Positions 19,990 through 31,055 are shown, counted from the stretch's first letter. The stretch: 64,000 bases of DNA from Candidatus Edwardsbacteria bacterium (GCA_018821925.1 JAHJLF010000077.1:1-64000); one strand, 5' to 3'. Numbers and translations are program-made. Notes: generated by a model not told the origin, from the letters alone.

Positions 19990-20301
19990 ATGAGAATAGA
20001 CAAACATCCCATACTTGACTTAAAAAAAGGGACCAAGATAGAATTTTATTTCGAGGGGCAGCCGGTTGAGGGATACCAGGGAGAACCCATTGCGGCTGCT
20101 CTGCATGCCGCCGGGATCAAGGTGCTGCGCCACAGCGTCAAGCTGGACAGACCCCGGGGCTTTTTTTGTGCGGTGGGAAAGTGTTCATCCTGCCTGATGG
20201 AGGTGGATGGAGTGCCCAATATTTTCTCCTGCATCACACCCATCCGCGATGGCATGCAGGTAAGGCGGCAAAAGGGACGGGGCCGGATCTCCCTAAAATG
20301 A
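19990..20301 (+). CDS. (2Fe-2S)-binding small subunit of an amino-acid-dehydrogenase-like complex
   Basis: 103 residues of the Fer2_4 type found at the N-terminus of sarcosine oxidase alpha, HcnA and opine/proline dehydrogenase subunits. Cluster ligands lie in RGFFCAVGKCSSCLMEVDG and FSCITPIRDG. It is the first gene after the promoter. An FAD/NAD-binding subunit follows, then (after an inserted gene) a ferredoxin, and at 29.6 kb a BFD-like and a DAO-type subunit. Together they match the parts list of dye-linked L-proline or D-amino-acid dehydrogenases. The actual substrate is not determinable. Confidence 0.85.
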   Translation: MRIDKHPILDLKKGTKIEFYFEGQPVEGYQGEPIAAALHAAGIKVLRHSVKLDRPRGFFCAVGKCSSCLMEVDGVPNIFSCITPIRDGMQVRRQKGRGRISLK

Positions 20302-20332
20302 ATCAATACTACGACACTGTCTTTAAGAATCC

Positions 20333-21415
20333 ATGACAAATACCGACTTTCTAATCATCGGGGGAGGCCCGGCCGGGCTGATGGCGGCGCTGTCGGCCTC
20401 GGAGTTCGGCCTGGAGCCGCTGATAATTGACGAGAACCAAAGCATCGGGGGCCAGCTGATAAAGCAGACCCACATGTTCTTTGGTTCCAAGGCCGAGAGA
20501 GCTGGGACCAGGGGTTTTGAGATAGGTCTGGAGCTGGAGCAGGAGATAGGGAAGCGCAACATCAGTATCGAGCGCCAGGCCTCGGCGGTGGGATATTATC
20601 CCGACGGAACGTTGGCGGTGCAGCAGAATGAAAAAGTGACCCCGCTTAAACCCAAGGCCATTCTGGTGGCCACCGGAGCCTCGGAGAATTTTGTTTCCTT
20701 TTCCGGCAGCGACCTACCCGGTGTATATGGAGCCGGAGCAGTGCAGACTTTGATGAACGTTTACGGCATCAAGCCGGGCCACAGCGTGCTGATGGTGGGC
20801 TCGGGCAACATCGGGCTGATAGTATCCTACCAGCTGATGCAGGCCGGGGTCGAAGTCAAGGCCGTCATCGAGGGCCTGCCCAAGATCGGGGGCTACCTGG
20901 TGCATGCCTCAAAGATAGCCCGGGCGGGGGTGCCAATTTTAACCCGTCACACCATCCTCAACGCATTTGGGGAGGAACAGGTCAGCGGTGCGGTGATATC
21001 AAAAATTGACGATAAATGGCAGACCATAGAGGGTACCCAGCAGACACTGGAGGTGGACACCATCTGCCTGGCGGTGGGGCTTTCCCCATTGACCGAACTT
21101 TTATGGCAGGCCGGCTGCCAGATGAACTACATTCCGGAGCTGGGCGGCCAGGTGGCCTGGCATGATGATCTGATGATGACCACTGCCCCGGGGATATTCA
21201 CCGCCGGCGACGTCAGTGGGATCGAAGAGGCCTCCACCGCCATGCTGGAGGGTGAGCTGGCCGGATTGGGTGCGGTCAAATTTCTCAGGGGCGGGTCAAA
21301 AGAATTGCAATGTCGGATAGATGATACTACTTGCCGTTTGGCAGGTCTCCGGGCCGGCCCGTTCGGGCAGAAGGCCAGGGAGGGGAAGTGCAAGCTGGCG
21401 GAGTGCAGACGATAA
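20333..21415 (+). CDS. FAD/NAD(P)-dependent oxidoreductase subunit (HcnB / proline dehydrogenase alpha-like)
   Basis: 360 residues. There are two Rossmann sites: FAD at residues 3-30 (FLIIGGGPAGLMAALSASE) and NAD(P)-like near 150 (SVLMVGSGNIGLIVSYQL). The ATG/GD FAD motif is in PGIFTAGDVSGIEEASTAML. The organisation resembles the pyridine nucleotide-disulfide oxidoreductase subunit of HcnB, opine oxidase and multi-subunit proline dehydrogenases. It should shuttle electrons between the amine-oxidising subunit and the iron-sulfur subunits. The next gene in the original operon was probably the ferredoxin at 22234; an AT-rich gene now lies between. Confidence 0.87.
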   Translation: MTNTDFLIIGGGPAGLMAALSASEFGLEPLIIDENQSIGGQLIKQTHMFFGSKAERAGTRGFEIGLELEQEIGKRNISIERQASAVGYYPDGTLAVQQNEKVTPLKPKAILVATGASENFVSFSGSDLPGVYGAGAVQTLMNVYGIKPGHSVLMVGSGNIGLIVSYQLMQAGVEVKAVIEGLPKIGGYLVHASKIARAGVPILTRHTILNAFGEEQVSGAVISKIDDKWQTIEGTQQTLEVDTICLAVGLSPLTELLWQAGCQMNYIPELGGQVAWHDDLMMTTAPGIFTAGDVSGIEEASTAMLEGELAGLGAVKFLRGGSKELQCRIDDTTCRLAGLRAGPFGQKAREGKCKLAECRR

Positions 21416-21430
21416 ATTAGAGGCAAAATT

Positions 21431-22225
21431 ATGAAATATGATAATTGCGAATTTACTTTTTATGGCGATTTATTAGGAGTTTCGAACTATTATAAAATTA
21501 GCCCGGATAAAGCTTATTCAAAATTGAATACTTTTTATAACAAATCATTCGAAATTTTCAAAGAATTAGTTGATAATGACCAAGAATTAAAGATATTTTT
21601 GTTTAGTGATTCGATATTTGTTACAGGCAAGAAGTTAGAAACAGCATTAAAGCATATTTCATATCTTTATTCTACCCTTTTCCAGAACAATCTTCTATTG
21701 CGTGGTGCAATAGTTAAAGGTTTGTTAGAATTCCAACCCAGAGTAGAAATAAAAAGATTTACGAAACAGCTACCCAAAGGGGATGTTTTATTTCGTGCGG
21801 TTGAATTAGAAAAGCGTAGCAAAGGTGCGCGACTTTTAATAGAGACTAAATTAGCACAACAGATACTGCCCAAAGAATGGTATACGAATGAAGGTTATGA
21901 TAGTAATATCGATAGAAAGATTCCAGAGCATAGTATTGTAAGAAAAATAAAACTCACTTCTGATTGGTCTGCTTATGAATATTTATGGCCACTAATAGAA
22001 GAAGATGAATACCCTTTAACTAATAAAGTTAAGATGGGTTATAAGGAATTAATTTTAATTATCGAAAATTTAAAAAGCATTAGTCCCAAAGAGGCAACTG
22101 CACACATAATTGAAACAAAAAAGATGTTTCAAAGTATAAAATTTAGTTTAAAATACAACTATGAGCGAAATTACAACAAAGCACTTGCAGAATCTCTCAA
22201 AGAATTACAAAAAAAAATTACATAA
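21431..22225 (+). CDS. AT-rich nucleotidyl-cyclase-like protein
   Basis: 264 residues. Three short motifs resemble class III nucleotidyl cyclases: FYGDLLGVSNYY (Asp13), FLFSDSIFVTG (Asp60) and LLRGAIVKG (Arg91-Gly92). The two aspartates are spaced as the metal ligands of that fold are. Similar motifs occur in Pycsar-type defence cyclases, but no effector gene is adjacent. Composition is far more AT-rich than both neighbours, and the gene separates two subunits of one enzyme complex. It therefore looks acquired. The fold assignment is inference from motifs; activity is unknown. Confidence 0.65.
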   Translation: MKYDNCEFTFYGDLLGVSNYYKISPDKAYSKLNTFYNKSFEIFKELVDNDQELKIFLFSDSIFVTGKKLETALKHISYLYSTLFQNNLLLRGAIVKGLLEFQPRVEIKRFTKQLPKGDVLFRAVELEKRSKGARLLIETKLAQQILPKEWYTNEGYDSNIDRKIPEHSIVRKIKLTSDWSAYEYLWPLIEEDEYPLTNKVKMGYKELILIIENLKSISPKEATAHIIETKKMFQSIKFSLKYNYERNYNKALAESLKELQKKIT

Positions 22226-22233
22226 CGATCCAA

Positions 22234-22734
22234 ATGCTCAGCGAAAAATTAACAACCTGCGGAATCGCCGATGCCACCGATATCAAAACCTCCTGGCCGT
22301 CGGAAGAGCGGCTGAAAAAAGGCCCGGTGGTCATCGTGGAATGCTTCCAGGAGATCCCCTGCAACCCCTGCGAGACCAGCTGTCCCCGCAACGCCATTAT
22401 AGTGGGGGAGAATATCAACGACCTGCCCCGGGTGGATCACAACAAGTGCAACGGCTGTACCGTCTGCGTCTCCCGCTGTCCGGGCTTGGCCATTTTTGTG
22501 ATTGACGTCAATTTCTCGGAAAAGGAAAGCTTGGTAACCATGCCTTATGAGTTTCTGCCCCTGCCGGAGAAAGGCGATATGGTCGATGGCCTGGACCGTG
22601 AAGGCAAAACATGCTGCCGGGCTAAGGTGGTCAAAGTGGTTAACACCAAGGCCCAGGGCAAGACCCCGCTGGTGACCCTGGCCATACCCAGAGGAATGGA
22701 AATGTCAACCCGGTTTTTCAAGCTGGTTTCCTGA
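22234..22734 (+). CDS. Ferredoxin-like subunit, two [4Fe-4S] motifs
   Basis: 166 residues. Residues 30-90 carry PCNPCETSCPRNAI and CNGCTVCVSRCPGLAI, separated by a loop. A C-terminal extension of about 75 residues (FLPLPEKGDMVDGLDREGKT) is typical of the ferredoxin subunit that accompanies HcnAB/proline-dehydrogenase-like complexes rather than of free ferredoxins. It probably belongs with 19990 and 20333 as electron-transfer subunit. It starts nine bases after the AT-rich insertion. Confidence 0.85.
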   Translation: MLSEKLTTCGIADATDIKTSWPSEERLKKGPVVIVECFQEIPCNPCETSCPRNAIIVGENINDLPRVDHNKCNGCTVCVSRCPGLAIFVIDVNFSEKESLVTMPYEFLPLPEKGDMVDGLDREGKTCCRAKVVKVVNTKAQGKTPLVTLAIPRGMEMSTRFFKLVS

Positions 22735-22870: not shown

Positions 22871-24010
22871 ATGACCAAGATCAAATCCGCAGTTCTGCTG
22901 ATGTTGTTCCTGCTTCCGGCCCTGGCCCCGGCCCTGGAGCCGCCCACCGATATCAAGCTGACTGACGCTCCCAATGACGACGGCTCCACCGTCATCATGA
23001 AATGGCAACCATCACCCTCGGAAAATGAGCCCGGCTTCATGGGCTACAATATCGAGAGGTCCGTGCTGCCCAACGACTCGTTCCAGATGATCGCCTGGGT
23101 TCCCAAGGGATACGTCGAGCACCAGGACAATTCGGTCGAGGTTATGGGTAAAAATTATTATTATAAGGTGGTGGCCGTCAACGAGAGCGGCGACAGCGCT
23201 GTCAGCGCCGTAGCCGGGCCGATAGCCACCACCCAGGACTGGTTCAATACCGGCAAGCTGAACACCCTTTTCGGCACCTTCCTTTTTATCGCCATCACCC
23301 TTTTATACATCTACTGGGCCCGCAAGGGCAAGCTGTTCATCCGGCGCATTGCCGGCCTGGATGCGGTGGAGGAGGCCATCGGCCGGGCCACCGAGATGGG
23401 CCGTCCCATCCTTTACTGCAACGGCATCGGGTGGATAGATTCCATATCCACCGTGGCTGCCCTGAACATCCTGGGTCAGGTGGCCAAGAAGACCGCCGAG
23501 TACGACACCCCGCTGACCGTTCCCACCGCCGACCCGGTGGTTCATGCGGTGGCCCGGGAGATGGTCAAGGAGGGCTATAAGAGCGCGGGCCGCCCGGATC
23601 TGTTCAAGGAGGACTCGGTATATTTTATCACCAGCGATCAGATGGGGTACGCCGCAGCCCTGGCCGGGATAATGGTCCGCGAGAGGCCGGCCACCAACTT
23701 TTTCATGGGTTACTATGCGGCCGAATCCCTGGTGCTGGCCGAGTCCGGGGCGGCCACCGGGGCCATCCAGATAGCCGGGACCGACCAGATATCCCAGCTG
23801 CCGTTCTTCATCACCGCCTGCGATTACACCCTGATCGGCGAGGAGCTGTACGCCGCCTCGGCCTACCTGTCCAAGGAGCCGCTGCTGGTGGGAAGCCTTA
23901 AGGGCCAGGACGCCTGCAAGCTGGTGATCATACTGTTCGTCCTGCTGGGCACCCTGACGGCCCTGATCTTCCGTTCCGATCTTATCTACAACCTATTCAG
24001 AATTCACTAA
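22871..24010 (+). CDS. Cassette 1 gene a: signal peptide, FN3 domain, membrane anchor, DUF6754-like domain
   Basis: 379 residues. Signal peptide at 1-22, a fibronectin type III-like domain at about 24-118 (PPTDIKLTDAPNDDGSTVIM ... YYYKVVAVNESGDSAVSA), one transmembrane helix at 132-150, then a soluble domain at 155-345 that I assign tentatively to DUF6754. Conserved stretches shared with the copy at 26259 are LFIRRIAGL, NILGQVAKKTAEY, GAATGAIQIAGTD and QLPFFITACDYTLIGEEL. A second helix ends the protein. The FN3 part should be periplasmic. Function unknown. It is the first gene of a four-gene cassette that is repeated immediately downstream. Confidence 0.85.
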   Translation: MTKIKSAVLLMLFLLPALAPALEPPTDIKLTDAPNDDGSTVIMKWQPSPSENEPGFMGYNIERSVLPNDSFQMIAWVPKGYVEHQDNSVEVMGKNYYYKVVAVNESGDSAVSAVAGPIATTQDWFNTGKLNTLFGTFLFIAITLLYIYWARKGKLFIRRIAGLDAVEEAIGRATEMGRPILYCNGIGWIDSISTVAALNILGQVAKKTAEYDTPLTVPTADPVVHAVAREMVKEGYKSAGRPDLFKEDSVYFITSDQMGYAAALAGIMVRERPATNFFMGYYAAESLVLAESGAATGAIQIAGTDQISQLPFFITACDYTLIGEELYAASAYLSKEPLLVGSLKGQDACKLVIILFVLLGTLTALIFRSDLIYNLFRIH

Positions 24011-24022
24011 AGGTAAATGAAT

Positions 24023-24643
24023 ATGAAAAAAAATATTCCCTTGGCCATAGTCTTCGTGCTGGGAGTGGCATTCATCATCCAGTTCTTCATTCCCAGCCGG
24101 CCGTCGCAGATAGCCTTCAATACCATGATCGAATGGGACCTGATTCTTTTTGTCTTCGCCTCGGTGATAGCGGTGGACAGCCTGGTGCGCCACCATATCC
24201 TGAAGATCTCCCGCAAGACCAAGGGCTGGGGATACAGCATCGTCTATCTGGGCGCGGCGGTGTTCATGATCCTGGCGGCGGTGTTCAGCGGCACCCGGGA
24301 GGGCAGTTTTTATATGAAGCTGTTCAATTACGCCCTGGCCCCCATGCAGGCCACCATGTTCGCTATCCTGGCCTTCTACATGGCCTCGGCCAGCTACCGG
24401 GCCTTTCGGGCCAAATCCACCGAGGCCACCATGCTGCTGGTCTCGGCCTTTATCGTGATGCTGGGGCTGATCCCGCAGGGGGCCGCCATCTGGAGCGGCC
24501 TGCCCAAGGTTTCCGAGTGGCTGCTGGTAATTCCCAATATGGCTGCCAAACGGGGCATCACCTTCGGGATCGGGCTGGGCATTACCGCCACCTCCCTGAA
24601 GATCATTCTGGGCATCGAACGCAACTGGATGGGGGGGCACTGA
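24023..24643 (+). CDS. Cassette 1 gene b: six-helix membrane protein
   Basis: 206 residues with about six hydrophobic segments (near 5-24, 36-55, 70-90, 105-125, 133-155, 178-198) and no recognised family. Motifs kept in the paralogue at 27450 are MFAILAFYMASASYRAFRA and NMAAKRGITFGIGLG, followed by TATSLKIILGIER. ATG at 24023 is chosen over 24017 because AGG at 24011 is then properly spaced. It lies 12 bases after gene a and one base before gene c. No charged or cysteine motif suggests catalysis. Confidence 0.83.
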   Translation: MKKNIPLAIVFVLGVAFIIQFFIPSRPSQIAFNTMIEWDLILFVFASVIAVDSLVRHHILKISRKTKGWGYSIVYLGAAVFMILAAVFSGTREGSFYMKLFNYALAPMQATMFAILAFYMASASYRAFRAKSTEATMLLVSAFIVMLGLIPQGAAIWSGLPKVSEWLLVIPNMAAKRGITFGIGLGITATSLKIILGIERNWMGGH

Positions 24644-24644
24644 T

Positions 24645-25496
24645 ATGCTAAAGTTTTTGGCCAAGTTCGGAAAGCTTGACCGCCGGATCGTATTCGCCCT
24701 TCTGCTGGTTTCCATTCTGGTGCCGCTGCTGTTCAACATAAAACCCCGGTTCTATGTTGATTCCGCCACCAAGGGTATTTATGATTATGTGGATCAAATC
24801 AAACCCAACGGGCGCCCCTTGCTGGTATCCTTCGATTACGATCCCCAGGTGGCCGCCGAACTGGATCCCATGGCCCGGGCGGTGCTGCGGCATTGTTTTG
24901 CCCGGGGGGTAAAGGTTGTGGGGATGTCCCTGGCTCCTCAGGGAGACGCCATCGGCGAAGGGATCATCACCCAGGTGGCCAGGGAGTATGATAAAAAATT
25001 GGGCCGTGATTATTGCTATTTTGGCTTCAGGCCCGGGGGCACCATTATCATGCTGCAGTTGGGGGTCAATGTCAAAAAGGCCCTGCCACTGGATTATTAC
25101 CAGACGCCCTACGACAGCCTCCCCATGATGAAAAACATCCACAACTACGACGACATCGCCATGGTGCTGTCCCTGGCCGGCTCCACCTATCCGGTAAGCT
25201 GGATGATTTTTGCCGGCACCAAATTCGGGGTCAAAATCGGAGCCGGGCAGACCGCGGTGATGGCTCCGGATAATTATCCCTTCCTGCAGACCAAGCAGTT
25301 TATCGGACAGCTGGGCGGCATGAAGGGGGGGGCGGAATATGAACAACTGATCGTCGATGCGGGGTATTATAATACGCCTGATGTGGCCAGCAAGGCCATG
25401 GGGGCCATCGCCTATTCGCACCTGCTGATAATCCTGCTGATCATTCTGGGGAATATCGGATATTTCATCTCCAAAAAAATCGAACAGAAAAAATAA
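24645..25496 (+). CDS. Cassette 1 gene c: bitopic membrane protein with large soluble domain
   Basis: 283 residues. A hydrophobic segment at about 15-32 and another at 257-276 flank a soluble alpha/beta region of some 220 residues. Within it, RPLLVSFDYDPQVAAELDPM, AVLRHCFARGVKVVGMSL and DSLPMMKNIHNYDDIAMVLS recur in the paralogue at 28085. The PFLQTKQFIGQLGGMKGGAE stretch near the C-terminus is the best conserved part. The alternating strand-helix pattern suggests a Rossmann-like fold, but I recognise no family. It probably faces the periplasm between two helices. Confidence 0.82.
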   Translation: MLKFLAKFGKLDRRIVFALLLVSILVPLLFNIKPRFYVDSATKGIYDYVDQIKPNGRPLLVSFDYDPQVAAELDPMARAVLRHCFARGVKVVGMSLAPQGDAIGEGIITQVAREYDKKLGRDYCYFGFRPGGTIIMLQLGVNVKKALPLDYYQTPYDSLPMMKNIHNYDDIAMVLSLAGSTYPVSWMIFAGTKFGVKIGAGQTAVMAPDNYPFLQTKQFIGQLGGMKGGAEYEQLIVDAGYYNTPDVASKAMGAIAYSHLLIILLIILGNIGYFISKKIEQKK

Positions 25497-25539
25497 CCCC
25501 GTCATTCTCAGAACCTTTTTTAAAACTAAGGATATAAAG

Positions 25540-26172
25540 ATGAGCACAAATATCTGGGTATGGATCGCGGCCCTGCTGAGCCTGGCCATCTTCTCCTACC
25601 TTTACAAGGACAACCCGGCCTTTAAATTTGCCGAACACCTTTTCACCGGGCTGTCGGTGGGCTATTTCATCGTTCTCTATTGGAACAATTACACCCTGCC
25701 CTATATCGTCACCCCCCTGAAAAATCACCAGTGGATAACCCTGATCCCCATGGCCATCGGGATGATGTACCTGTTCCGGTTCATCCCCAAGCTGAACCAT
25801 CTGATCCTGATACCCATCGCGGTCAGCCTGGGTTTCTGGAACGGGATGTCCATCCCGGTCACCTTCGAGGCCGACGTATTAAAGCAGATCCAGGGCACCA
25901 TGATCAATACCTCCATGCTAAGCAACATCTGGGATCCCCAGAAGGGTCTGATGGTGGGCCTGCTGGTGATGGTGGGGGTGATCAGCACCATCACTTATTT
26001 CTATTTCTCCCGGGAGCACAAGGGGCCTCTCAAGGTCACCGCCAACATCGGCATCTGGTTCGTGATGATCGGCTTCGGGGCCACCTTCGGATACACCGTC
26101 ATGGCCCGGGTCTCGCTGCTGATCGCCCGGATGCAGTTCCTGTTCACCGACTGGATACATCTGATAAAATAA
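25540..26172 (+). CDS. Cassette 1 gene d: polytopic membrane protein
   Basis: 210 residues, about six hydrophobic segments. The N-terminal motif KDNPAFKFAEHLFTGLSVGY and the C-terminal run FSREHKGPLKVTANIGIWFV, followed by MIGFGATFGYTVMARVSLLI, are nearly repeated in the paralogue at 28944. No family is recognised. It starts 43 bases after gene c, and a gap of 83 bases separates it from the second cassette, the largest break within the whole repeated region. Confidence 0.82.
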   Translation: MSTNIWVWIAALLSLAIFSYLYKDNPAFKFAEHLFTGLSVGYFIVLYWNNYTLPYIVTPLKNHQWITLIPMAIGMMYLFRFIPKLNHLILIPIAVSLGFWNGMSIPVTFEADVLKQIQGTMINTSMLSNIWDPQKGLMVGLLVMVGVISTITYFYFSREHKGPLKVTANIGIWFVMIGFGATFGYTVMARVSLLIARMQFLFTDWIHLIK

Positions 26173-26258
26173 GTCGGGCCAGGGGCAGTTTTAAATGTTC
26201 GAAAGGCCATAAAGGTTATATCTGTATATAATCAACAACCATAAAACGGAGAATATTG

Positions 26259-27440
26259 ATGAGGCTTAAAATTTATGCCCTGCTGCTGGCGATGGCGGCG
26301 GCCCTGCCGTGTCTGGCAGCGCCTCCCGGGCCGGAGGCAACGATGGCGGCCGTCACCGTAGCCCCGCCGTCCGACATCAAAGCCGCCGACACCCCCAACG
26401 ATGCCGGCAATGCCATTACCGTAACCTGGCAGGCGTCGCCGGACGAGGCCCAAAAGTTGATCGAGGGCTACGAGGTCCTGCGGTCCGAAACTCCGGACGG
26501 GGAATTTATCAAGGTGGGTTACGTGCCTTACGGCTTCACCAGCTTTGACGACCAGGATGTCCCGGCCAACAGCCAGGATTATTTCTACCAGGTCAAGGCG
26601 GTGGGCCGGGAGAGCCAGGCCCTGAGCTTGGTGTCTGTCTCGGCCAGGTCTGTGGAGCAATGGTTCAACACCATGCGCATCAATGCCCTGATCAGCTGCA
26701 TCCTGTTCACCATGATCGTGATGATATTCATCGGCCGGGCCAAGAGCGGCCAGAGCCTTTTCATCCGCCGCATCGCCGGGCTGTCGGAGGTAGAGGAGGC
26801 GGTGGGCCGGGCCACAGAGATGGGGCGTCCCATCCTATATGTGCCGGGGCTTTCGGGTATCTCGGATGTGGCCACCATCGCCGCCCTGAACATTCTGGGC
26901 CAGGTGGCCAAGAAGACCGCTGAATACGGCACCCCGTTGCTGGTGCCCAATCGCGATCCGGTGGTATTCACCGTGGCCCAGGAGATAGTCAAGGAGGCCT
27001 ACAACGAGATCGGCCGTCCCGACGCCTACAACCATGACTCGGTGTTCTACCTGACCGACAGCCAGATGGGCTTCGCCTCCGGGGTGGACGGCATCATGAC
27101 CCGGGAAAAACCGGCTACCAATTTCTTCATGGGCATGTTCTGGGCGGAAAGCCTGATTCTGGCCGAGACCGGAGCAGCCACCGGGGCCATCCAAATAGCC
27201 GGCACCGACTCCATCTCCCAACTGCCGTTCTTCATCACCGCCTGCGACTATACCCTGATCGGCGAGGAACTGTACGCCGCGTCGGCTTATCTTTCCCGGG
27301 AACCAATGCTGCTGGGTACGCTAAAGGGCCAGGACTGGAGCAAGGCCGTCATTGTGATGCTGCTAATCGTCGGCCTGGCTATATCGCTGATCAGCCCCGG
27401 GGTCAGACAAATCATCCTGCAAATGCTAAAGGTAGGTTAA
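26259..27440 (+). CDS. Cassette 2 gene a: signal peptide, FN3 domain, membrane anchor, DUF6754-like domain
   Basis: 393 residues, paralogue of 22871-24010 with the same domain order: signal peptide (MRLKIYALLLAMAAALPCLA), a longer linker, FN3-like domain (PPSDIKAADTPNDAGNAITV ... YFYQVKAVGRES), transmembrane helix near 150-170, then the DUF6754-like domain. The domain keeps LFIRRIAGLSEVEEAVGRAT and GAATGAIQIAGTDSISQLPF. The FN3 part is much more diverged than the cytoplasmic-side domain, suggesting different partners outside. ATG 26259 with an upstream GGAGA is used rather than TTG 26256. Confidence 0.85.
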   Translation: MRLKIYALLLAMAAALPCLAAPPGPEATMAAVTVAPPSDIKAADTPNDAGNAITVTWQASPDEAQKLIEGYEVLRSETPDGEFIKVGYVPYGFTSFDDQDVPANSQDYFYQVKAVGRESQALSLVSVSARSVEQWFNTMRINALISCILFTMIVMIFIGRAKSGQSLFIRRIAGLSEVEEAVGRATEMGRPILYVPGLSGISDVATIAALNILGQVAKKTAEYGTPLLVPNRDPVVFTVAQEIVKEAYNEIGRPDAYNHDSVFYLTDSQMGFASGVDGIMTREKPATNFFMGMFWAESLILAETGAATGAIQIAGTDSISQLPFFITACDYTLIGEELYAASAYLSREPMLLGTLKGQDWSKAVIVMLLIVGLAISLISPGVRQIILQMLKVG

Positions 27441-27449
27441 GGAGAAAAA

Positions 27450-28088
27450 ATGAAAAGACAGATACCTTTGATAATCGTGTTGACCCTGGGGATATTTTTC
27501 TTCATCCAGTTCTTCGTCCCCAGCCAGATATCAACCAACATCTATCAGACCACCCTGCAGTGGACCATCGTCATCAGCGCCTTTGCCATCGTGCTGGCCA
27601 TCGGCAGCCTGGTCAACCATCACATGCTGAAGATCAAAAGGCGCAAGCCGCATTGGTGGAACAGCATCGTGACCCTGGTGGCCCTGGTGGTGATGGCCCT
27701 GCTGGGCATCTTCGGAAGGGTAAAGGGGCTGGAGCCGCTGGGCAACCTGTTTCATACCTTGTTCCTTTATGTCCAGGCTCCCATGGATTCGGCCATGTTC
27801 GCTATCCTGGCTTTCTACATGGCCTCAGCGGCTTATAGGGCTTTCCGGGCTCGCTCCCAGGAGGCGGCTTTGCTGCTGATATCCGGATTTATCGTGATGC
27901 TGGGGGTGATCCCCTTCGGCTCCATGCTCTGGTCCAAGATCCCGGATATCGCCGAATGGATCATGATGGTTCCCAACATGGCCGCCAAGCGGGGGATCCT
28001 GTTTGGAATCGGTCTGGGGATGACGGCCACCTCGCTGAAGATAATTCTGGGCATTGAACGCAGCTGGCTGGGAGGAGGCGGCAAATGA
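27450..28088 (+). CDS. Cassette 2 gene b: six-helix membrane protein
   Basis: 212 residues, paralogue of 24023-24643. It shares the N-terminal hydrophobic segment ending FFIQFFVPSQ, then MFAILAFYMASAAYRAFRA and NMAAKRGILFGIGLG. The loop between helices 3 and 4 is longer than in copy 1. AAGGAG lies seven bases before the ATG. Its stop overlaps the start of gene c by four bases (ATGA), so the two products are probably made in equal amounts. Confidence 0.83.
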   Translation: MKRQIPLIIVLTLGIFFFIQFFVPSQISTNIYQTTLQWTIVISAFAIVLAIGSLVNHHMLKIKRRKPHWWNSIVTLVALVVMALLGIFGRVKGLEPLGNLFHTLFLYVQAPMDSAMFAILAFYMASAAYRAFRARSQEAALLLISGFIVMLGVIPFGSMLWSKIPDIAEWIMMVPNMAAKRGILFGIGLGMTATSLKIILGIERSWLGGGGK

Positions 28089-28933
28089 AGATATTAGAGA
28101 ATCTGACCAAAATAAACCGCCGGTATATCTTCCTGCTGGTGGCCCTGGCGGTGATCATTCCCCTGATAGTTCCCATGAAACTGCCCACCATCCCGGGAAA
28201 ATATACCATCAAGCTGTACGACTTTATAGATAAGATACCGCCCCAGAGCCAGCCGGTGGTTATTGCGGCCGATTACAGCCCCTCCATGATGCCCGAGCTG
28301 CAGCCGATGCTGGAAGCCGTCATCCGGCACTGTTTTGCTAAGAAGATCAGGGTCATTATTCTGACCCTTGATCCCAACGGCGCGGCTCTTTCGGAAGCGG
28401 CCCTTAAAAAGATCGCTCCGGAATATGGTGCCCAGAACGGCCGGGATTATGCGTTCCTGGGATTCAAGCCGGGCTATTCCATCGTGATGATGTCTATTGG
28501 CGAGAGTTTCATAAAGACCTTTCCCACCGATTTTTACGGCACCCCGCTTGACAGCCTGCCGATGATGGCCGGCGTCCGCAACTACGCCGATGTGCCCTTA
28601 GTGATCTCCATTGCCGGCAGTGCCGTCACCCAGAGTTGGATCGCTTACGCCCATACCAGGTACCATGCCAATGTGGGCGCCGGCTGCACCGCGGTCAGCA
28701 CCGCCGACTACTATCCTTTCCTGCAGTCCGGACAGTTAGTGGGACTTTTGAACGGAATGAAGGGGGCCAGCGAGTATGAATATTTGAATGAGAAGAACGG
28801 CTATTCCCGGGCCATCAAGATCGCCGGACGGGGGATGAACGCCGTTTCTATAGTTCACCTGCTGTTGATGCTGTTCATCATCCTGGGCAATATCGGCTAT
28901 CTGGTGACCCGGCACAACCAGAGCAAGAAGTAA
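28085..28933 (+). CDS. Cassette 2 gene c: bitopic membrane protein with large soluble domain
   Basis: 282 residues, paralogue of 24645-25496. N-terminal helix near 14-34 and C-terminal helix near 256-275 bracket the soluble domain. Conserved patches are VIRHCFAKKIRVIILTL, DSLPMMAGVRNYADVPLVIS and PFLQSGQLVGLLNGMKGASE. The conserved patches of both copies cluster in the second half of the soluble domain, which may be the interaction surface or an active site. Function unknown. Confidence 0.82.
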   Translation: MKILENLTKINRRYIFLLVALAVIIPLIVPMKLPTIPGKYTIKLYDFIDKIPPQSQPVVIAADYSPSMMPELQPMLEAVIRHCFAKKIRVIILTLDPNGAALSEAALKKIAPEYGAQNGRDYAFLGFKPGYSIVMMSIGESFIKTFPTDFYGTPLDSLPMMAGVRNYADVPLVISIAGSAVTQSWIAYAHTRYHANVGAGCTAVSTADYYPFLQSGQLVGLLNGMKGASEYEYLNEKNGYSRAIKIAGRGMNAVSIVHLLLMLFIILGNIGYLVTRHNQSKK

Positions 28934-28943
28934 GGAGAGCGAA

Positions 28944-29576
28944 ATGATATTTTCAACCAACCCCTGGGTGTGGATCGCAGCAACATTGACACTGTGCATC
29001 TTCTCATTTTTATACAAGGAAAATCCCTTCTACCGTTTTGCCGAGCATCTTTTCGTTGGCATCTCGGCCGGATACGGAGTAGCCATCTACTGGAACAACG
29101 CCATAGTGCCCAACCTCTACGTGCCGGTGTTTCAGCAACACAATTACTGGTTCATAATTCCCGGCCTTATCGGGATGATGTTCTTTTTCCGGTTCAGCGT
29201 AAAAACCGGCTGGTTGATATTGATCCCCTTGGCGGTGCTGCTGGGAACCGGCAGCGGAATGGCTTTGGCGCCCACTTTCCAGACCAACATCCTCAAACAG
29301 ATGCAGAGCGCCATCGCCGACGCCACCAACCTTAAGCTCGGCGGCTGGAGCTTAGTTTGGGGCCTAGTCACTTTTGTGGGAGTGCTGACCACCTTGAGTT
29401 ATTTCTTCTTCTCCCGGGAGCAGAAGGGCGCCCTTAAAGTATCGGCCAACATCGGCATCTGGTTCATCATGATCGGCTTCGGGGCTAGTTTTGGCAACAC
29501 CGTGATGGCCCGGATCTCCCTGCTGATCGGCCGGATGCAGTTCCTGCTGACTGATTGGATACATATCATCAAGTAA
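28944..29576 (+). CDS. Cassette 2 gene d: polytopic membrane protein
   Basis: 210 residues, paralogue of 25540-26172 and the same length. It keeps YKENPFYRFAEHLFVGISAG, YWNN and the C-terminal FSREQKGALKVSANIGIWFI with MIGFGASFGNTVMARISLLI. AAGGAG precedes the ATG. It ends the second cassette; dispersed repeat A follows directly and then the remaining dehydrogenase subunits. Confidence 0.82.
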   Translation: MIFSTNPWVWIAATLTLCIFSFLYKENPFYRFAEHLFVGISAGYGVAIYWNNAIVPNLYVPVFQQHNYWFIIPGLIGMMFFFRFSVKTGWLILIPLAVLLGTGSGMALAPTFQTNILKQMQSAIADATNLKLGGWSLVWGLVTFVGVLTTLSYFFFSREQKGALKVSANIGIWFIMIGFGASFGNTVMARISLLIGRMQFLLTDWIHIIK

Positions 29577-29632: not shown

Positions 29633-29646
29633 TAATATTGAAAAGC

Positions 29647-29916
29647 ATGGCAAATAACGACGATAAAATAATCTGCCGCTGCGAGGACATTACCGAGTCC
29701 GAGGTCCTGGAAGCAATTGAGAAAGGCGCAGCCACCGCCGACGAGGTCAAGCGCCTGACCCGGGCCGGCATGGGCCATTGCCAGGGAAGAACCTGCCGCC
29801 GGCTGGTCAACCAGATCCTGACCCGGAAGCTGGGCCAGAACCCGGAGGATCAAAAGGCGGTTACCCAGCGCTCTCCGCTGCAGCCCATCTCGCTGAAAAT
29901 TCTGGCGGATTCATAA
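29647..29916 (+). CDS. BFD-like [2Fe-2S] subunit
   Basis: 89 residues with the bacterioferritin-associated-ferredoxin-like cluster motif: [12 protein letters not shown] near the N-terminus and [14 protein letters not shown] later, i.e. CxC and CxxxxC ligands. In amino-acid dehydrogenase complexes this domain links the FAD subunits. A TTG at 29638 in frame is less likely than ATG 29647. It is two bases upstream of the catalytic subunit gene and belongs functionally with 19990, 20333 and 22234, from which it is separated by the duplicated cassette. Confidence 0.85.
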
Positions 29917-29918
29917 AG

Positions 29919-31055
29919 ATGTCCAAAAGCGCCGACGTCATAATCATCGGTGGCGGTATCGTCGGAGCGGCCACCGGGTACTATCTGGCCCAGGCAGGAT
30001 ATAAGGTCCGGCTGATCGAGAAGGGCTATCTGTGCGCCGGCTCCACCGGGCGCTGCATTGGCGGCATCCGCCAGCAGTTCACCTCCGAGGGATCCATCAA
30101 GCTGATGCTGGAGAGCGTAAGGCATTTCAGCAACATGAAAGAGGAATTGGGTATCGATGTCCACTGGTATCCCGGCGGGTATCTGTTCCTGGCCCACAGC
30201 CCGGAGAAGAAGGAAGCCTTTTTGGCTAATATCGCCGTTCAGCAGAGCTTCGGTCTGAAGGACGTCCGCTGGGTGGATGCTTACGAAGCCGGGCAGGTTG
30301 CCCCGGGGCTGAATATCGACGGCCTGCTGGGCGGCTCCTACTGTCCGTCCGATGGACAGGCCTATCCCTTTGCCGTGGTCAATGGCTACGCCGAAAAGAT
30401 CAAATCACTGGGTGGCCGGATAAACACCTTTACCGAGGTGACCGCCATATTGCAGGGCGGAGGCCGGGTCCAGGGTGTTAAAACCGCCGAGGGGCCTGAA
30501 TATCATGCCGCTATCGTCATCAACGCCGCCGGGCCCTGGGCCAAGGAGATCGGGATGATGGCTGGTATCAGTGTGCCGGTGGAGCCGGAGCGGCATGAGG
30601 CCCTGATAACCGAGGGGGTGGAGTATCTGAACATCCCCATGCTGGTTGATTACCGGACTGACGGAGGCTATTTCCAGCAGTTCCGCCACAACGGACAGTT
30701 CATCGGCTGCTACTCGCCGGTTCCCAGTGTGCCCGGGCATTCCACCGATTCCACCCATGAGTTTTTGCATGAGATGCCCAAAAGAATGCTGAAGCTGGTT
30801 CCCGCCCTGGCCCCGGTCAAGGTCATCCGCCAGTGGTCGGGCAGCTATGAGAACACCCCGGACGGCAACCCCATCCTGGATAGATCGCCGCTGGAGGGTT
30901 TCTATGTCATCGCCGGTATGTGCGGGCATGGCTTCATGCTGGGTCCGGCCATCGGGCGAATGGCGGCCGATTTCATAAAGAAAGGCGCAAAAGAGCCGCC
31001 CATCGCCGAGTTCGCCCTGGAGCGCGATTATTCCAGCCAGGAGGCAATGAAATAA
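29919..31055 (+). CDS. FAD-dependent amino-acid dehydrogenase, DAO family (catalytic subunit)
   Basis: 378 residues, full length for the DadA / sarcosine oxidase beta / proline dehydrogenase beta family. FAD Rossmann motif DVIIIGGGIVGAATGYYLAQ at residues 6-25, GSTGRCIGGIRQQFTSEGS near 40, and the C-terminal FAD loop GFYVIAGMCGHGFMLGPAIG. It should oxidise an amino acid or N-methyl amine to an imine and pass electrons to the partner Fe-S subunits. The ATG at 29919 is two bases after the BFD-like gene; the longer frame from 29778 overlaps that gene and is rejected. Confidence 0.88.
   Translation: MSKSADVIIIGGGIVGAATGYYLAQAGYKVRLIEKGYLCAGSTGRCIGGIRQQFTSEGSIKLMLESVRHFSNMKEELGIDVHWYPGGYLFLAHSPEKKEAFLANIAVQQSFGLKDVRWVDAYEAGQVAPGLNIDGLLGGSYCPSDGQAYPFAVVNGYAEKIKSLGGRINTFTEVTAILQGGGRVQGVKTAEGPEYHAAIVINAAGPWAKEIGMMAGISVPVEPERHEALITEGVEYLNIPMLVDYRTDGGYFQQFRHNGQFIGCYSPVPSVPGHSTDSTHEFLHEMPKRMLKLVPALAPVKVIRQWSGSYENTPDGNPILDRSPLEGFYVIAGMCGHGFMLGPAIGRMAADFIKKGAKEPPIAEFALERDYSSQEAMK

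Follow-up and report, generated by a model that had tools for sequence, protein, structure and literature searches.

The region analysed here lies in a 64,000-nucleotide stretch of DNA (the window) from a Candidatus Edwardsbacteria bacterium, and consists of two four-gene cassettes in tandem, copy 1 at 22871-26172 and copy 2 at 26256-29576. All eight a-b-c-d open reading frames are found on the + strand, tightly packed, with an order and coordinates close to those of the original prediction. Gene a1 (22871..24010) encodes a protein with a signal peptide, an FN3 domain predicted to lie outside, a transmembrane (TM) helix, a cytoplasmic α/β domain of the DUF6754 family and a C-terminal TM helix, its fold being taken from the model of a2. 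It is followed by b1 (24017..24643), a polytopic protein with about 6 TM helices and its N-terminus inside, c1 (24645..25496), in which a Rossmann-like α/β domain, predicted to be extracytoplasmic, lies between two TM helices, and d1 (25540..26172), again polytopic with about 6 TM helices. The start of b1 is at 24017, the previously given position 24023 being a second in-frame ATG. In copy 2, a2 (26256..27440, with a likely start at ATG 26259) has the same architecture as a1 and is followed by b2 (27450..28088), c2 (28085..28933), whose first 4 bases overlap the end of b2, and d2 (28944..29576). As had been claimed, the gene order is repeated at nearly equal lengths (379/394 residues for a, 208/212 for b, 283/282 for c and 210/210 for d), and protein identity between the copies is far above chance: 66% for the DUF6754 region of a, 58% for b, 43% for c and 57% for d. 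The pair is no assembly artefact, since the same tandem pair occurs in loci L027, L030, L036, L038, L067 and L068; both cassettes of L067 resemble those of the window, with 97% (copy 1) and about 90% identity.

Both a1 and a2 match Pfam PF20539 (DUF6754), with 378 bits (E 2.2e-113) and 404 bits (E 2.3e-121) respectively, for a gathering cut-off of 27 bits. The Pfam match of the FN3 domain falls below its cut-off (E 0.086); the domain is backed by the AlphaFold model of a2 (pLDDT 92) and by Foldseek (E about 1e-6, probability 1.00). In this model, the FN3 domain (residues 39-123) is followed by a TM helix (139-163), a six-stranded α/β domain (176-347) and a second TM helix (350-379). The model of c1 (pLDDT 96) likewise comprises a TM helix, a six-stranded α/β domain and a TM helix. 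Foldseek ranked FN3 domains first for the a model and gave no useful fold match for its α/β domain; for c, no PDB match was found below E 1e-3 and the matches were of a generic Rossmann type. Sequence searches against the PDB returned no relative of c, and the best match of DUF6754 had an E value of 0.82. No named family was found for b, c or d in Pfam or NCBIfam.

Hydropathy and charge bias in about 80 homologues place DUF6754 inside and the FN3 and c domains outside, and predict about 6 TM helices in each of b and d; the 6+6 TM core and the orientation of c are predictions from hydropathy and charge bias only. In a proteins devoid of FN3, the short uncharged N-terminus and the basic stretch after the TM helix place DUF6754 inside. 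This topology agrees with the one originally proposed, in which a carries an FN3-like domain, an anchor and DUF6754, b and d are polytopic and the c domain lies between two TM helices. Nine residues of a are invariant in the alignment of the DUF6754 family (Q270, R283, E298, E304, Q313, Q322, C330, D331 and E338), and by inference from the model several of them would sit at strand ends of the α/β domain. The ectodomain of a varies across homologues, from proteins lacking FN3 up to proteins of more than 900 residues; the lengths of some long a frames (e.g. at L090) were obtained by naive ORF calling and were given no weight. The α/β domains of a and c share an identical order of secondary structures, and their C-terminal motifs look alike by eye. 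That the two are sequence paralogues was unsupported by profile comparison (probability about 1%). In the very divergent genome G340, the c protein reaches 1508 residues (L166 2232-6758); a zinc-ribbon-like motif at its N-terminus and PPWLQ-type repeats are predicted to be on the cytoplasmic side.

The cassette is a conserved unit. In all, 142 DUF6754 genes were found, and directly downstream of 130 of them lie b, c and d, in this order and on the same strand; the survey covered about 110 loci from many phyla, including Coatesbacteria, Zixibacteria, WOR-3, Stahlbacteria, Hydrothermota, Nitrospirota, Planctomycetota, Fermentibacteria and Armatimonadota. The 12 exceptions are mostly due to contig ends or short contigs, and one to a frameshift in the fourth cassette of the source genome; the few real ones are an extra a, an orphan a, a split locus in G144 and a divergent locus. 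The frameshifted gene is a b gene found in two frames (L006 9343-10004) and whole in relatives, which reflects either an assembly error or a real frameshift. Distances between cassettes correlate among the four proteins (r 0.80-0.89). The proposal that a-d form a membrane cassette is thus upheld, as b, c and d adjoin a almost everywhere, and none of b, c and d matches an ordinary transporter family.

The origin of the tandem pair was examined in a tree of 74 concatenated cassettes. Copies 1 and 2 of the window fall into two sister clades, each with orthologues from other members of the Edwardsbacteria family f1, which indicates a single duplication on the stem of this family. Moreover, dN/dS ranges from 0.05 to 0.19 across all eight genes, as expected for purifying selection. 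The duplication is therefore old and has been kept under selection, as was first suggested. However, the shared block QLPFFITACDYTLIGEEL, put forward as a sign of its age, hardly varies throughout the DUF6754 family, which spans many phyla; it cannot date the event, and it is the tree that does. For each of a-d, copy 1 groups with its copy 1 counterparts elsewhere, distances being smaller within clades than between them; the two copies have therefore exchanged no gene. Co-variation in the sequences favours each cassette forming its own complex over a mixed complex such as the paired, possibly heteromeric, subunits first suggested, and contacts between copies may still occur. Three tandem cassettes are present in G004, and the tandem pairs of G043, G078, G018 and G091 arose from other, separate events. 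Given these separate origins and the 53 single-cassette genomes among 108 carriers, the duplicate is not needed for function.

Clustering of neighbouring genes revealed three recurrent upstream genes, which encode a PF13941 (MutL/GlmL) ATPase, an RnfC-like protein and p132, a protein of 132 residues. A fourth partner, p148, is a small membrane protein whose gene lies ahead of p132 in many loci. The MutL protein of the system is about 600 residues long (PF13941, E 3e-125); in 35 such long proteins, the ASKHA phosphate-2 and adenosine motifs are always present and the phosphate-1 pattern is found in 33. The RnfC-like protein (375 residues) has a weak match to the RnfC_N/biotinyl barrel-sandwich (E 9e-5, below cut-off) and a KOW-like C-terminus, and outside the RnfC_N part is mostly a different conserved domain. 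Searching the PDB by sequence gave no relative of MutL and, for the RnfC-like protein, nothing beyond weak KOW matches; neither this protein nor p132 or p148 belongs to a named family in Pfam or NCBIfam. The usual gene order is p132-mutL-rnf-a-b-c-d, contiguous in 27 cassettes, and a contiguous p132-a-b-c-d-mutL arrangement is found even in G340. MutL-RnfC-like fusions of about 1000 residues exist, which suggests that the two proteins touch. Such fusions were seen as extra copies in carrier genomes (L115 2296-5322 and L117 4878-7925, reverse strand), one of them with an N-terminal HTH domain. The original prediction had correctly recognized a conserved membrane unit, but this is only the membrane half of the system, and the separately encoded ATPase module had been missed.

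Co-occurrence was assessed in 386 bacterial species genomes, with partners counted whether linked or not. DUF6754 was detected in 108 genomes from 66 families; the Fisher p-values for co-occurrence ignore shared ancestry and are to be read with this spread over families. The RnfC-like protein was found in 105 genomes, 104 with DUF6754 and one, a weak match, without it (4 genomes having DUF6754 only). Similarly, 101 of the 103 genomes with p132 carry DUF6754 and two do not (7 DUF6754-only), and MutL exceeds its cut-off in 116 genomes, 103 with DUF6754 and 13 without (5 DUF6754-only), several of these MutL-only genomes encoding the shorter form of about 460 residues, as in true GlmL. All four markers are found together in 99 genomes. 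The search for p148 covered 251 genomes and gave 59 carriers; DUF6754 is present in 57 of these, and in the remaining two the p148 match is weak. In the source genome, the p132, mutL and rnf-like genes adjoin the fourth cassette on contig C72, and p148 is on C53. The ATPase module is not strictly obligatory: G067, a single contig estimated to be 96% complete, has a cassette and p132 but gave no match for MutL or the RnfC-like protein; both proteins are also missing from G086 and G226, and MutL from G016. That a-d are ordinary unrelated membrane genes, adjacent by chance and duplicated together, has nothing in its favour beyond missing annotation; it is refuted by the constant order and strand in many phyla together with the genome-level co-occurrence with unlinked partners, and we consider it barely credible.

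Two to six cassettes are present in 55 of the 108 DUF6754 genomes. The source genome has four, two being the tandem pair of the window and a third lying on contig C50. Nearly all carrier genomes have one full-length RnfC-like gene, the extra matches being mostly the fusions described above. It appears, then, that one ATP-using module is common to one to six interchangeable membrane modules per cell. Composition, gene order, co-occurrence and copy numbers are in this way established computationally; topology and fold are predicted.

The surroundings of the cassettes were then considered. Directly upstream of the window pair are SoxA-like amine dehydrogenase genes (19990..22734, + strand; 2Fe-2S subunit at 19990, FAD subunit at 20333, ferredoxin at 22234), a position kept in family f1, and directly downstream are genes for a BFD-like [2Fe-2S] protein and a SoxB-like FAD subunit (29638..31055, + strand). 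In this family, the tandem pair thus splits a SoxA/SoxB-like amine dehydrogenase cluster. Elsewhere, the core operon directly follows GcvT-GcvH-GcvP in about 7 of 66 families, with lipoate ligase after d in some. A glycine-cleavage superoperon (GcvT, GcvH, GcvP, p148, p132, MutL, RnfC-like, a-b-c-d, with or without lipoate ligase) was observed at L120, L134, L142, L153 and L160. These neighbours could indicate a membrane-bound enzyme, or enzyme-maturation, complex, in which DUF6754 would be catalytic, the MutL/RnfC-like pair would act as an ATP-dependent reactivating chaperone, and glycine, amine or lipoate metabolism may be the setting. The invariant polar set of a, including Cys330-Asp331, would suit such a role, GlmL/MutL is described as a chaperone reactivating glutamate mutase (PMC4682846), and an alanine-glyoxylate-aminotransferase-like gene, named from its sequence, is near four loci. 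However, the remaining cassettes adjoin unrelated housekeeping genes, so that the glycine/amine link is suggestive and not general. In addition, no enzyme family match or cofactor motif was seen, and a single ATPase module for up to six cassettes is left unexplained. We regard an enzyme complex as the main alternative, though a somewhat doubtful one.

Several further features were noted around the cassettes. The window encodes, between the FAD and ferredoxin subunits, a 264-residue protein with no family match (21431-22225). The same slot is empty in L027; L067 and L030 have a nucleotidyltransferase-like gene there, and L036 has two large proteins that look secreted. The slot is a small insertion hotspot. 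Upstream of the triple cassette of G004 (L033 14410-17066), a TIR-like protein and a P-loop ATPase-like gene, both judged by eye, are perhaps defence cargo in the same hotspot. In Nitrospirota (L078, L079, L080 and L083), the gene directly upstream of a encodes a Tll0287-like protein (PF11845) that bears a CxxCH haem-binding motif. In eight genomes of the Edwardsbacteria family, a third cassette is embedded in a V-type ATPase operon, where it directly follows subunit C and precedes subunit A (L005, i.e. G000:C50, 4149-16528; L029, L032, L035, L037, L039, L040 and L041).

Roadblock/LC7 and DUF4388 genes occur near cassettes in the Edwardsbacteria family and in Stahlbacteria. Together with the variable ectodomains over the conserved inner domain of a, they could point to transmembrane sensing or signalling, where FN3 and c would sense, DUF6754 would relay the signal, and MutL, p132 and roadblock-type proteins would be cytoplasmic switches. 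We think this unlikely: no kinase, HAMP, cyclase or receiver domain was found linked to the cassettes, two polytopic subunits would be odd for a sensor, and the roadblock linkage is confined to few lineages. The varied ectodomains, along with the wide distribution and housekeeping-like neighbours, are also what would be expected of an envelope-assembly or membrane quality-control machine acting on lipid, polymer or protein, with the ASKHA ATPase as its power source. However, no link to a particular envelope pathway was found, and this alternative too seems improbable to us.

The interpretation we tentatively lean towards is an ATP-powered membrane machine, most likely a transporter, in which exchangeable membrane modules have a motor in common. 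In such a machine, a, b, c and d would form one membrane complex with b and d (about 6+6 TM helices) as its core. The α/β domain of c would be presented outside, and a would present its optional FN3 domain outside and its highly conserved α/β domain inside. The MutL-type ASKHA ATPase, the RnfC_N-like barrel-sandwich/KOW protein, p132 and p148 would dock on the inner face and drive the complex with ATP, a single energising module serving every membrane cassette of the cell (four in the source genome). Its work would most likely be to move substrates across the membrane or out of it at the expense of ATP, with a different substrate for each cassette paralogue. The physical complex, docking, ATP drive and transport are what we infer. 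Against this reading, the diverse housekeeping neighbours of the cassettes share no substrate theme, a few carriers are devoid of the ATPase module, and ASKHA ATPases are, to our knowledge, not known to energise transporters. The bolder version of this proposal, which is doubtful, is that a GlmL-type ASKHA ATPase and a barrel-sandwich adaptor constitute the common motor for several exchangeable heteromeric (6+6 TM) cassettes, and that the system represents a new class of primary transporter.

Although 108 of the 386 species genomes sampled carry the system, it is absent from all 14 well-known control genomes. Of its eight proteins, seven either lack a family name or are known only through a domain of unknown function. 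Once these scattered hypothetical genes are treated as a single eight-gene system, comprising one ATPase module and one to six membrane modules per cell, they become open to experimental testing, and long GlmL-type ATPases, previously known only beside a B12 enzyme, gain a likely membrane role. A literature search, with subscription papers and preprints outside its scope, returned no paper on the system, nor one naming DUF6754, PF20539 or PF13941. We regard the system as newly described; it is possible that it has been noticed elsewhere.

The system was also compared with known ones. Pfam DUF6754 covers only that domain of a, and b, c, d, the partners of the ATPase module and the operon are absent from Pfam and NCBIfam. 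The ATPase is a member of PF13941 with ASKHA motifs, as is GlmL/MutL (PF13941, NF040745). However, it has about 600 residues compared to about 460 for GlmL, is linked to a membrane complex, was not seen with mutase genes, and misses the NCBIfam GlmL cut-offs (226.6 vs 475 bits for NF040745 and 158.5 vs 204 bits for TIGR01319). A search of PADLOC-DB gave one marginal match, of p132 to LmuB (E 1e-3, 55 residues), and an anti-phage defence system was ruled out. Likeness to the RnfC/NqrA subunits of the Rnf and Nqr complexes is limited to the weak RnfC_N barrel-sandwich match; b and d match no Rnf/Nqr family and no further Rnf/Nqr subunit was seen. Electron transfer of the Rnf/Nqr type was ruled out, as no Fe-S, flavin or other Rnf subunits were found. 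Similarly, a-d match no V-ATPase subunit in Pfam or NCBIfam, and the V-ATPase was ruled out as a general partner, the co-location being confined to the Edwardsbacteria family. No recurrent gene for an ABC-type nucleotide-binding domain was found in the core operon, whose sole conserved ATPase is of the ASKHA type. In group II ECF transporters, several exchangeable membrane modules operate on one energising module. The system described here has neither an ABC ATPase nor EcfT, and its subunits are different and unrelated in sequence, but its copy-number logic is alike.
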